DNA of 64,000 nt, taken from the NCBI GenBank assembly GCA_000827325.1, contig KN832873.1:944245-1008244 (forward strand). Reading direction: 5' to 3'. Under the pieces are notes generated by a model that ran no database searches, was not told where the DNA came from, and worked only from the letters and a program-made list of their open reading frames with translations. Source of the stretch: Oidiodendron maius Zn. Taxonomy: Eukaryota > Ascomycota > Leotiomycetes > Myxotrichaceae. The position numbers and the translations under genes are program-made. This document shows, one piece after another, positions 16,241-19,924 of the stretch (positions are counted from its first letter, which is position 1; every line of letters begins with the position of its first letter).

Positions 16241-18122
16241 ATGCATTTCTCTGCACAACACTCGGTTGCCCTGGCGGTGGCCATCCTTTCCACCCGAGCT
16301 GTCGCCTCCGGTGTCAAGGCCGCCCCCATCCCGAAGGTCAACCTAGAACAGATCGCTCACGGCGTGTCCACCGGGACCGGAATTGTCAACGACCTCACTG
16401 GAGCCTATGAGACCGTCAAGGGCGCGATCGAGGGCAATCGGAAACGTGACCCTAAGGTCAACCTAGATCAGATCGCTCACGGCGTGTCCACCGGGACCGA
16501 AATTGTGAACGACCTCACTGGAGCCTATGAGAACGTCAAGGGCGCGATCGAGGGCAATCGGAAGCGTGACCCTAAGGTTAACCTAGAACAGATCGCTCAC
16601 GGCGTGTCCACCGGGACCGGAATTGTCAACGACCTCACTGGAGCCTATGAGACCGTCAAGGGCGCGATCGAGGGCAATCAGAAGCGCGAGCCGGAGCCAG
16701 TTAACTGGGGAACGATTGGCAGCATTGGCAAGGATGTTTTCAGCATTGGAAAGGACGTCTATGATGGCGCTGAGGACCTCTTTGGAAGCAAACAGCCCCA
16801 GCCATCTGGGCAGCCACAGAAGCGTGAGCCTGAGCCGATTAACTTGAAGTCGATTGGCAGCATTGGCAAGGATGTTTTCAGTATTGGAAAGGACGTCTAT
16901 GATGGCGCTGAAGACCTCTTTGGAAGCAAACAGCCCCAGCCATCTGGGCAGCCACAGAAGCGTGAGCCTGAGCCGATTAACTTGAAGTCGATTGCCAACA
17001 TCGGAGGTGATATCTTCAAAGGCGTCGAGGATATCTTCGGCGGTAGCAGCAACAACCAGCAGCAACAGCAGCAGCACAAGCNNNNNNNNNNNNNNNNNNN
17101 NNNNNNNNNNNNNNNNNNNNNNNNNNNNNNNNNNNNNNNNNNNNNNNNNNNNNNNNNNNNNNNNNNNNNNNNNNNNNNNNNNNNNNNNNNNNNNNNNNNN
17201 NNNNNNNNNNNNNNNNNNNNNNNNNNNNNNNNNNNNNNNNNNNNNNNNNNNNNNNNNNNNNNNNNNNNNNNNNNNNNNNNNNNNNNNNNNNNNNNNNNNN
17301 NNNNNNNNNNNNNNNNNNNNNNNNNNNNNNNNNNNNNNNNNNNNNNNNNNNNNNNNNNNNNNNNNNNNNNNNNNNNNNNNNNNNNNNNNNNNNNNNNNNN
17401 NNNNNNNNNNNNNNNNNNNNNNNNNNNNNNNNNNNNNNNNNNNNNNNNNNNNNNNNNNNNNNNNNNNNNNNNNNNNNNNNNNNNNNNNNNNNNNNNNNNN
17501 NNNNNNNNNNNNNNNNNNNNNNNNNNNNNNNNNNNNNNNNNNNNNNNNNNNNNNNNNNNNNNNNNNNNNNNNNNNNNNNNNNNNNNNNNNNNNNNNNNNN
17601 NNNNNNNNNNNNNNNNNNNNNNNNNNNNNNNNNNNNNNNNNNNNNNNNNNNNNNNNNNNNNNNNNNNNNNNNNNNNNNNNNNNNNNNNNNNNNNNNNNNN
17701 NNNNNNNNNNNNNNNNNNNNNNNNNNNNNNNNNNNNNNNNNNNNNNNNNNNNNNNNNNNNNGCGTGAGCCTGAGCCGATTAACTTGAAGTCGATTGCCAA
17801 CATCGGAGGTGATATTTTCAAAGGCGTCGAGGATATCTTCGGCGGTAGCAGCAACAACCAGCAGCAACAGCAGCAGCACAAGCGTGAGCCTGAGCCGATT
17901 AACTTGAAGTCGATTGCCAACATCGGAGGTGATATTTTCAAAGGCGTCGAGGATATCTTCGGTGGTAGCAGCAACAACCAGCAGCAACAGCAGCAGCAAC
18001 AGCATAAGCGTGAAATCCAGATGCCCCCATTCCACGTGGGCGTCCCCGTCCTAGGCCCAAACACTCCTCACTTTGGAGGCCACGGACCTGTCGTACACCC
18101 TCAAGTACTAGCCCAGGCCTAG
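16241..18122 (+). CDS. Secreted Kex2-processed tandem-repeat peptide precursor
   Basis: The start at 16241 gives a signal peptide (MHFSAQHSVALAVAILSTRAVA). The rest is tandem units ending in Lys-Arg. Three A units of 40 aa run as VNLEQIAHGVSTGTGIVNDL, TGAYETVKGAIEGN, then KR. Two B units of 46 aa run as GSIGKDVFSIGKDVYDGAED, LFGSKQPQPSGQPQ, then KR. At least three C units of 40-42 aa run as INLKSIANIGGDIFKGVEDI, FGGSSNN, polyQ, HKR. A 36-aa Pro/His/Gly/Val-rich tail (EIQMPPFHVGV...HPQVLAQA) closes the protein. Every internal unit after a KR starts with DP or EPEP, the X-Pro dipeptides trimmed by Ste13/DPP4-type enzymes. Kex2 in the Golgi would cut after KR, releasing at least eight peptides plus the tail. 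The units look amphipathic (I/V/F alternating with D/K/G). There are no cysteines. The 680-N gap breaks the array and the frame does not carry across it at that length, so copy number is unknown. Function unknown: candidates are a RiPP or other KEP, or a surface-active peptide. No modifying enzymes are adjacent. Confidence 0.9.
16331..16687 (+). repeat. Type A coding repeats, 3 copies of about 120 bp
   Basis: Copies lie at 16331-16447 (joined to the leader through AAPIPK), 16448-16567 and 16568-16687. They are almost identical at the DNA level. Differences include GAA/GAT in the LEQ/LDQ codon, GTG/GTE, ETV/ENV and the final NRKR/NQKR. Such high identity suggests recent duplication or gene conversion. 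Confidence 0.9.
16688..16963 (+). repeat. Type B coding repeats, 2 copies of 138 bp
   Basis: Copies lie at 16688-16825 and 16826-16963. The first begins EPEPVNWGTIGSIGKD and the second EPEPINLKSIGSIGKD. The head of the second matches the following type C units (EPEPINLKSI), while its body matches the first B unit. Confidence 0.9.
16964..18011 (+). repeat. Type C coding repeats, at least 3 copies of 120-126 bp, interrupted by the gap
   Basis: One copy runs from 16964 up to the gap, and two follow it at 17766-17885 and 17886-18011. Each encodes EPEPINLKSIANIGGDIFKG, VEDIFGGSSNN, a Gln run and HKR. The last copy has two extra Gln codons (126 bp), so the CAG/CAA run varies in length. The gap probably hides more copies. 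Confidence 0.9.
17082..17761. other. Assembly gap (680 N) inside the repeat array
   Basis: The sequence is N from 17082 to 17761. The flanks are the same repeat junction (CACAAGC before, GCGTGAGCC after). The length is neither a whole number of 120-bp units nor compatible with a continuous frame, so it is probably an estimate. Confidence 0.97.
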
Positions 18123-19076
18123 ATGCAGGACGCGTGAGCGATACAGGACCTCCTCCACCTCAGGATTTCGATTGATCCTCTTCTTTTCTCGAACCCCCTC
18201 CTCAACCCCCACTTCTCTTTTCCTTTGTTCTAGGTGTGTATATGGATAGGCGACTTGTACATTTATCAAGAGTTCTTCATTTTTATGGCAAGGAGTTATG
18301 GCGTCCAAAAATGAACCCGGTGTTCTACAAAAGTGCTTTTTTTCCTCTTTTCTCTCTTCTGGATTTTTGACCATGGTCCACCCGGGCCGGGTGGTGACAC
18401 AAGGCTGATGACCAATCTGTGCCAACAGCTATTTTGAGGGATTCTACAATTGCGGGTTTGATTTTGGGGATATCATTGGTTCCGTTTCGGATTGGTGTCT
18501 TTTGAGGGATTTCAAGGGTGTCTGGAGTTTGGAGCTCAGTACATAGGCAGGTAGCATGGGAATGCAAAGCTTGTAACATCAATGACTGTGCCCCTATGAT
18601 TTTTATTGAGGTTTGTGATCATGGGGTGATAGGTTTAAAACAGTGAGATCGTGGCATCTTTGCGCGTCCCAAACAGCCCAAACTCTAATCATTGTACAGT
18701 ATAGGAAAGTGTGTACTAATTGTGTATCCTTTGAATCCTTCTTCAGTTCAGTTGGTGGGTAAGCAAAGGATTTCGATTACTGAACACAGCTTTCCTCTGC
18801 CCTACCCTAATAAATAACCATGGCTAAAATGGCCAATGTTCGTAATAGATACGGTAGATAGGTGTAGTTTGGTTATGCGCGATTAGTGACGTACATGATG
18901 AAAATAAGATTAATATTCGACGAAGTAGCTTTTAGGTTGTATTACCAATTGCTCATGCATATCGAATAGAGTATTCACAGACGATTGATGGTGAGATGTC
19001 CCTAATTCCTCTCCTCCCTTCCCCGTATGTTATAATTCCAATCCAATATCAATCCTACCATGACCCCTACCAAGTC
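18123..19076. other. Intergenic region
   Basis: This is the 3' flank of the repeat-peptide gene and then AT-rich spacer. Short frames on minus (18108-18582) overlap the 3' flank and look like chance. No other feature seen. Confidence 0.45.
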
Positions 19077-19924
19077 CTCCCTCACGACACATATGGCCGC
19101 GACAGGGGCCTCTTCTTCAAAGCACACCTCCCATGCGGCCTAGGAACCAACATCGCCGGCATCGTGACCAGACTCGGTCCCGGCGTCACGAAATACCAGA
19201 CCGGCCAGCACATCTTCGGACAAGGAAGCCCCGTCGCCCCAATCCCAGACTCCACGGGGCTGCAAGAATTCGCCACGCTGCTCACGAGCGACAGCGCTCT
19301 TCAACAAGTCCAATTTCGCTTTCCCGTACCCTCGCCAGGGGGGTTTCGATTATGCCGCGCAGACTTTGGTGGTCATTGGCGCGGGCTCGAATGTCGGGCG
19401 TCTGACAGTGCAGATGGCTAACTTCGTCGGTCTGGGCAAGGTCATCGCCGTGGCTTCTTTGTCAGGGGAGAAGGAGCTTAGAGCCATAGGGCGCCACGCA
19501 CGTCGTAGATCGATACTCGGACGATATCGCCAGGGATATATATGCCGTAACTGACGGACCGGGTTCCGTGACGAACGTGATGGACTGCGTGAACTGGACT
19601 TTCGAATTCGCGGCACAGCTGGTCTCCAGTTCGCGGCCGGGCAAGATCATGACGCTGCACCAGCCGCCGACGGCGCTGGCGGAGTTGGAGCGGCCGGGGA
19701 AGAAGGACGTAAAGGCCGGGATTGTGTTGGGCATCAGAGAGTACTTCGCTGAGCTGGCGGAGATGTTCTGGGGAAATATCGGGGAGTGGGTGGCTCAGGG
19801 CAAGGTCATGCCTGGGAAGTTCAGGGTTATCGAGAGACTAGATGAGCAAAAGATCAACGAGGCCCTGGATTCGTATCAGGATGGTAAGCCTGTTCTCCAG
19901 GCCATCGTTCATCCAAATGCCTAG
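19077..19924 (+). pseudogene. Broken zinc-type alcohol dehydrogenase/quinone oxidoreductase (MDR)
   Basis: Three consecutive blocks match the MDR family but lie in different frames. Block one is a GroES-like segment (GLGTNIAGIVTRLGPGVTKY, then GQHIFGQGS) up to LQEFATL near 19285. Block two starts near 19300 (LFNKSNFAFPYPRQGGFDYA) and carries the Rossmann nucleotide-binding segment TLVVIGAGSNVGRLTVQMA to about 19485. Block three (GATHVVDRYSDDIARDIYAV) runs to HPNA and stop at 19924. At least two frameshifts separate them, a stretch between blocks one and two seems missing, and the normal N-terminus is absent. Intact members are cytosolic NAD(P)H-dependent reductases of about 350 aa. Sequencing error cannot be excluded, but the missing start favours a pseudogene. 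It lies just downstream of the repeat-peptide gene on the same strand. Confidence 0.8.

Follow-up and report, generated by a model that had tools for sequence, protein, structure and literature searches.

The window, that is, the whole stretch of 64,000 nucleotides of Oidiodendron maius Zn DNA that was analysed, carries on its forward strand an open reading frame for a protein with tandem repeats (16241-18122). Two parts of the frame are legible, 16241-17080 (280 residues) and 17763-18119 (119 residues); both are free of stop codons, and the frame ends with a TAG codon at 18120-18122. Between them, inside the array, lie 680 N (17082-17761); the window contains no others. From ATG to stop the gene measures 1882 nt, which is not a multiple of three, so that the real gap probably differs in length from the run of N, or else the frame is not intact. 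The run may be an assembly gap of estimated length. Since it is located inside the array, the visible copy number is a lower bound, and unit counts given here refer to the units visible on either side of it. The features of the gene are as follows.

16241-16333, forward strand: leader MHFSAQHSVALAVAILSTRAVASGVKAAPIP, with a signal-peptide-like hydrophobic stretch and the conserved ASGVKAAP[IV]P, ending in the X-Pro dipeptides AP-IP
16334-16447, forward strand: unit A1, core KVNLEQIAHGVSTGTGIVNDLTGAYETVKGAIEGNR and KR
16448-16567, forward strand: unit A2, DP spacer, core and KR
16568-16687, forward strand: unit A3, DP spacer, core and KR
16688-16825, forward strand: unit B1, EPEP spacer, VNWGTIGSIGKDVFSIGKDVYDGAEDLFGSKQPQPSGQPQ and KR
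16826-16963, forward strand: unit B2, EPEP spacer; reads as a B/C hybrid, beginning as in unit C1 and then B-like
16964-17080, forward strand: unit C1, EPEP spacer, INLKSIANIGGDIFKGVEDIFGGSSNNQQQQQQH and K; the remainder of the site lies in the gap
17082-17761, no strand: 680 N inside the array, of a length that is out of frame
17766-17885, forward strand: unit C2, EPEP spacer, C core and KR
17886-18011, forward strand: unit C3, EPEP spacer, C core longer by two Gln, and KR
18012-18122, forward strand: C-terminal non-repeat peptide EIQMPPFHVGVPVLGPNTPHFGGHGPVVHPQVLAQA (36-residue tail, 18012-18119) and stop

The first-pass annotation had described a signal peptide followed by at least eight units of three types, and this description holds: three A, two B and three C units (the first C cut by the gap) follow a leader that resembles a signal peptide by eye. 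The first A unit adjoins the leader directly, without a separate pro-domain. Without X-Pro and KR, an A core has 36 residues, a B core 40 and a C core 34 or 36, similar to the range of about 34-42 residues annotated for the released peptides. The visible protein is free of cysteine and the C units end in six or eight consecutive Gln plus His, again in line with the annotation.

The units of each type are similar at the DNA level. Differences amount to 5/114 nt between A1 and A2, 4/114 between A1 and A3 and 7/114 between A2 and A3, while B1 and B2 differ at 8/126 nt and units C1 and C2 at 1/102 nt. Counted from the start of its EPEP spacer, B2 is identical to unit C1 over the first 31 nt and identical to B1, with one mismatch, over nt 26-75. 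This change of partner along one unit suggests that units have exchanged sequence by recombination or gene conversion.

Downstream of the gene, an ORF at 18996-19421 shows a match to ADH_N just at the cut-off (23.5 bits). By eye, the ORFs 19366-19554 and 19568-19924, the latter without a Pfam match, appear to continue it in other frames. The set (18996-19924) may reflect introns or a degraded gene.

Lys-Arg sites and X-Pro spacers

Seven complete Lys-Arg sites are found in the visible protein, every one of them at the end of a unit; the site of unit C1 runs into the gap. When the composition of the two pieces was shuffled 5000 times, 0.76 sites were obtained on average and 5 at most. DP or EPEP follows six of the seven sites, and the seventh opens the tail (EIQM). 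As annotated, the units are closed by Lys-Arg and the internal ones are opened by DP (A2 and A3) or EPEP (B1, B2 and the three visible C units).

The same pattern was observed in the wider family described below. Runs of one to four X-Pro dipeptides follow 37 of 47 Kex2-type sites (EPEP 21, EPEPEP 10, EPVPEPEP 2, DP 2, EP 2, none 10) in 11 sequence pieces, some of which overlap (P0001 and P0004 strongly) and are therefore not independent. In the KEP survey of PMC6339444, the STE13 signature is defined as XA or XP after a KEX2 site, which bears out the alpha-factor-like layout proposed earlier, with X-Pro in the place of X-Ala.

At the locus on contig C23, both EPEP and EPEPEP precede the identical core FNFGSLIKDGEQILGSVL. 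Such a variable number of dipeptides is as expected for a spacer that is trimmed away. The locus on contig C8 features the arrangement RR-EPEPKR, in which the spacer is flanked by a basic pair on each side.

Leader family and its relatives

The leader is common to at least eight loci of the genome: the window gene and the loci named here C23, C8, C3, C1, C21, C11 and C1b. The last is a second locus on contig C1, at C1:3469937, which was obtained with a composite query (E=0.01). When the eight leaders are compared without gaps over their first 81 nt, the pairs agree at 41-65 of 81 positions. All 28 pairs lie above a codon-shuffle null, with 0 of 4000 shuffles reaching the observed value; this null preserves codon content but is not drawn from unrelated signal peptides. 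In 19 of the 21 pairs that remain when C1 is excluded for its in-frame stop, dN is lower than dS, with dN/dS ranging from 0.13 (C4/C23) to 0.62 (C3/C11); dS is saturated in the other two. A search with the window protein alone yielded an unconvincing value for C11 (E=0.37) and a modest one for C21 (E=4.5e-4), and both are assigned to the family because of the leader DNA test. ASGVKAAP[IV]P is conserved in most family leaders, from which C11 and C1b depart. The cargo behind the leader differs between the loci:

C23: units of the form EPEP(EP)-FNFGSLIKDGEQILGSVL-KR
C8: VSLGHVADGVGIASDIAQGVGAF in seven similar copies, with VQRR-EPEPKR behind six
C21: Pro/Ala/Gly repeats
C1b: an amphipathic stretch (p=0.008) and a poly-Gln tail
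C11: a short peptide with a Pup-like end
C1 (region of C1:872120): in-frame TGA in the leader; ShK domain in a later piece (PF01549, E=2.3e-9)
C3: in-frame TAG, then a four-Cys peptide without a Pfam family (best match Defensin_beta, E=0.099)

The two of the eight loci with in-frame stops, C1 and C3, may be pseudogenes or assembly errors. The C23 array likewise holds an N run, of 652 N (C23:380514-381165). As N runs interrupt this array as well as that of the window, the tandem arrays of the leader family may be poorly assembled.

The end of the C11 peptide (C11:975421-975513) resembles the C-terminal half of bacterial Pup. It scores 31.6 bits against PF05639 (cut-off 27, E=3.3e-7), 32.9 bits against TIGR03687, which is under the cut-off of 41.45, and E values of 0.001-0.01 against Pup chains in the PDB. 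This is the sole PF05639 match found in the genome, and one of 14 control genomes (Corynebacterium glutamicum) contained a match. When the 48-residue piece of C11 was used as a pattern to scan prokaryote genomes, no relative was confirmed, and nothing on a fungal Pup was found in the literature titles searched. The likeness may be due to chance or convergence. A further observation concerns a probably secreted protein at C1:1635902-1636078 with a different leader (ending in AVAAPVPV), the C-terminal stretch of which resembles the C1b cargo (E=3.9e-7).

Searches of the protein collection, one of which scored only the 8000 candidates with the most words in common with the query, revealed seven further family members, P0001-P0007. 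P0004 is without a leader and has units in common with P0001, while P0006 and P0007 hardly differ from each other. In P0003, C8-type and C23-type cores occur side by side in a single precursor, and P0005 combines other cargo with a leader and first unit that closely copy those of C8. The alignment of P0002 spans A3 and B1 (E=3.9e-5), a score which the A3 half may carry; against the region from B2 to unit C1 its value is E=0.56, and P0001 matches the A3/B1 region at E=0.008. From these alignments, homology of the B and C units of the window to the C23-type core is not established. With the C array and the tail as query, no homologue was found in the protein collection.

Several candidates were discarded. 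A match of contig C14 to P0002 (E=0.19) lacks the family leader and by eye resembles part of an unrelated enzyme, and P0008 (E=0.22) has little in common with the family beyond KREPEPEPF. Pfam and NCBIfam matches of the repeat proteins to EarA and YbjQ_1 (both above the Pfam cut-off), SspL, HTH_10 and enoyl-CoA hydratases were rejected as short and partial; several of the rejected matches are inflated by repeats. The pre-gap protein gave a single match in a sequence search of the PDB (E=0.7). Pattern scans with P0003 found no relative in the collections of viral and prokaryote genomes, five short sequences typical of the family did not occur in the open-licence literature, and titles and abstract openings of that literature contained no description of the leader family that we could find.

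Predicted processing and peptide properties

By each feature testable from sequence, the gene belongs to the KEX2-processed repeat proteins (KEPs). One criterion for a KEP is a minimum of three similar units with Kex2 sites between them, and three A units and three C units (one cut by the gap) are present; the STE13 signature is an optional feature. The precursor architecture as described is highly probable.

For the processing we infer the following route. The hydrophobic N-terminus, judged by eye, offers two possible signal peptidase sites, between VKA and AP and between A22 and S23. The leader would direct the precursor into the ER, and a cut between VKA and AP[IV]P would create the new N-terminus AP[IV]. 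Such a start would match the Erv29/Surf4 export tripeptide of many pro-alpha-factors. Under the -3/-1 rule, the site between A22 and S23 is at least as good a candidate as the one after VKA, and its use would remove the AP[IV] argument. Trimming of AP and IP would leave a first A unit starting with KVNL..., like A2 and A3 after removal of DP. Among the pro-alpha-factors of 45 Saccharomycetales, 24 start with APV and 8 with API (PMC6097701). Further along the array, kexin would cut after Lys-Arg, a putative Kex1-type carboxypeptidase would remove the basic ends and the DPPIV/Ste13-type peptidase of the genome would strip the DP and EP dipeptides. The expected secreted products would be of three types, all linear, cysteine-free and weakly anionic; their cores would measure 36, 40 and 34-36 aa, with B and C clearly amphipathic.

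Sequences of the types needed for two of these steps were found in the genome. One DPPIV_N match lies in an ORF of 906 aa (from the first Met) that has a hydrophobic segment near its N-terminus and contains GWSYGG, which we take to be a catalytic motif. The one kexin P-domain match is partial (57/86 positions) and contains one in-frame stop, perhaps an intron.

The hydrophobic moment exceeded that of the core's own shuffles (p<0.05) in 10 of the 12 cores predicted for the window, the paralogs and the relatives. Correction for 12 tests was passed only by B1, B2 and C of the window. A1 (p=0.16) and the first unit of C23 (p=0.12) failed the test, and A2 (0.048) passed it uncorrected only. The released peptides had been annotated as amphipathic, which stands for B, C and A2 but not for A1. 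The predicted cores have a net charge of 0 to -4. An AlphaFold model (mean pLDDT 40, pTM 0.28) was unusable; its helices coincide with the cores but carry no weight.

Function and significance

Compared to the described KEPs (Le Marquer 2019, Umemura 2020; PMC6339444, PMC7329392), the window gene is alike in its signal peptide, tandem units, Kex2 sites and STE13-type X-Pro. It differs by its three unit types and by a leader common to loci with seemingly unrelated cargo. Umemura ascribed the top 8 multi-copy KEP types, found in one or two strains, to gene duplication, the example being three almost identical copies (PMC7329392). KEPs are widespread in fungi (PMC7329392) and their functions are largely unknown (PMC9769878). 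The KEP layout is already known; new here is a leader in at least eight loci with different cargo.

A close parallel in layout is Rep1 of Ustilago maydis, which has Kex2 sites and 12 amphipathic repeats, each of 34-55 aa, and is processed to surface-active, amyloid-like fibrils (PMC4617103). Together with Hum3 (31-36 aa), it resembles the window gene in having Kex2-separated amphipathic repeats of similar length and several peptides per precursor (PMC4617103). Kex2-separated repeats in the Rep1 range of 34-55 aa are present in the window protein, with a moment above shuffles for B1, B2, C and A2 but not A1. Rep1 and Hum3 are basidiomycete proteins, the available part of PMC4617103 notes no X-Pro spacer in them, and the likeness described here is one of layout. 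By analogy with the Rep1 repellents, for function we infer that the released peptides would be surface-active, would self-assemble and would exert their effect on hyphae or other surfaces. This role is put forward tentatively and ranks first among the functions considered, followed by action on membranes. The complete reading, a KEP from one of at least eight leader-sharing loci with differing cargo, the peptides of which would most likely be surface-active and repellent-like, is on balance probable.

The same precursor and processing could instead supply peptides that act on the membranes of competitors, predators or a partner, as cytolytic or antimicrobial agents like Ece1 or defence peptides. 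The Ece1 precursor yields several different peptides, as would the window gene, and elsewhere the leader carries the ShK domain (PF01549, E=2.3e-9) and the four-Cys peptide. Both of these loci contain in-frame stops, however, and the cores of the window are neutral to anionic (0 to -4), whereas classic antimicrobial peptides are cationic. Ece1 of Candida albicans is alike by description, as a linear peptide released by Kex2, and its product candidalysin is counted among linear KEP products (PMC9769878). We regard a membrane-active role as rather unlikely.

A peptide signal, either pheromone or hormone, released by the alpha-factor route is improbable. The precursor of Saccharomyces alpha-factor is alike in its leader, in its KR with X-Ala or X-Pro spacers and in a possible AP[VI] start. 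PMC6339444 describes the STE13 signature as being, in Ascomycota, generally reserved for alpha pheromones, and owing to this signature many ascomycete KEPs are regarded as precursors of pheromones (PMC9769878). Cores of 34-40 aa exceed the 9-24 aa of known alpha pheromones (PMC6339444), and both the three cargo types in one gene, which is without the separate pro-domain of the alpha-factor precursor, and the unlike cargo of at least eight family loci argue against a signal. A genome scan for WC...GQ.C returned two single matches, neither in an array, compared to three in the reversed control, and the cysteine-free cores fall outside the two-Cys pheromone class. Core length and cargo diversity thus sustain the earlier view that a mating pheromone is unlikely.

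An uncut repetitive wall or matrix protein with incidental Lys-Arg is very improbable: repeats of wall proteins exchange sequence readily, as do the units here, and the C-terminal tail is not a repeat, but Lys-Arg occurs at unit ends only, X-Pro follows it in phase and the C8 locus has its paired RR-EPEPKR.

A precursor of cyclic, oxidised RiPPs of the dikaritin/ustiloxin type, for which the KEP layout and a genome rich in UstYa sequence (PF11807; 70 matches, exon fragments counted apart, all counts being lower bounds) could be cited, is the least credible reading, since no UstYa match was found near any family locus: about 182 kb separate the window gene from the nearest one, the C23, C8 and C3 contigs yielded none and the distance at the other loci is at least 270 kb. 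Dikaritin cores are also short, unlike the long amphipathic cores found here. Where the annotation had suggested a RiPP/KEP or a surface-active peptide set, a KEP and a surface-active set are possible, but a RiPP in the dikaritin sense is not supported by any UstYa match closer than 180 kb. UstYa clusters at C1 6.50-6.60 Mb, C15 0.92-0.93 Mb and C17 37-46 kb are possible dikaritin-type loci in their own right.

For the family as a whole, the leader may tentatively be seen as a reusable secretion-and-processing cassette, possibly with an Erv29-type AP[IV] tripeptide, that is joined to unlike cargo in one genome. The cargo would then comprise recombining amphipathic arrays, a poly-Gln amphipathic peptide, Pro/Gly repeats, ShK, a four-Cys peptide and a Pup-like peptide. 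Precursor families of the conotoxin and MSDIN types also combine a conserved leader with variable cargo across paralogs, but stem from different organisms with different maturation, and MSDIN precursors are not secretory. If the cassette reading is true, the family would be a fungal counterpart of the venom precursor families with conserved leader and variable cargo, and recombination within arrays, and perhaps from one array to another, would be the source of new units. Should the peptides prove surface-active, they would represent a repellent-like system outside Ustilago. The family separates the demands of secretion and processing (leader, KR and X-Pro) from the functional demands on the core, and its conserved leader with exchanging cargo provides a natural experiment on the evolution of new secreted fungal peptides.
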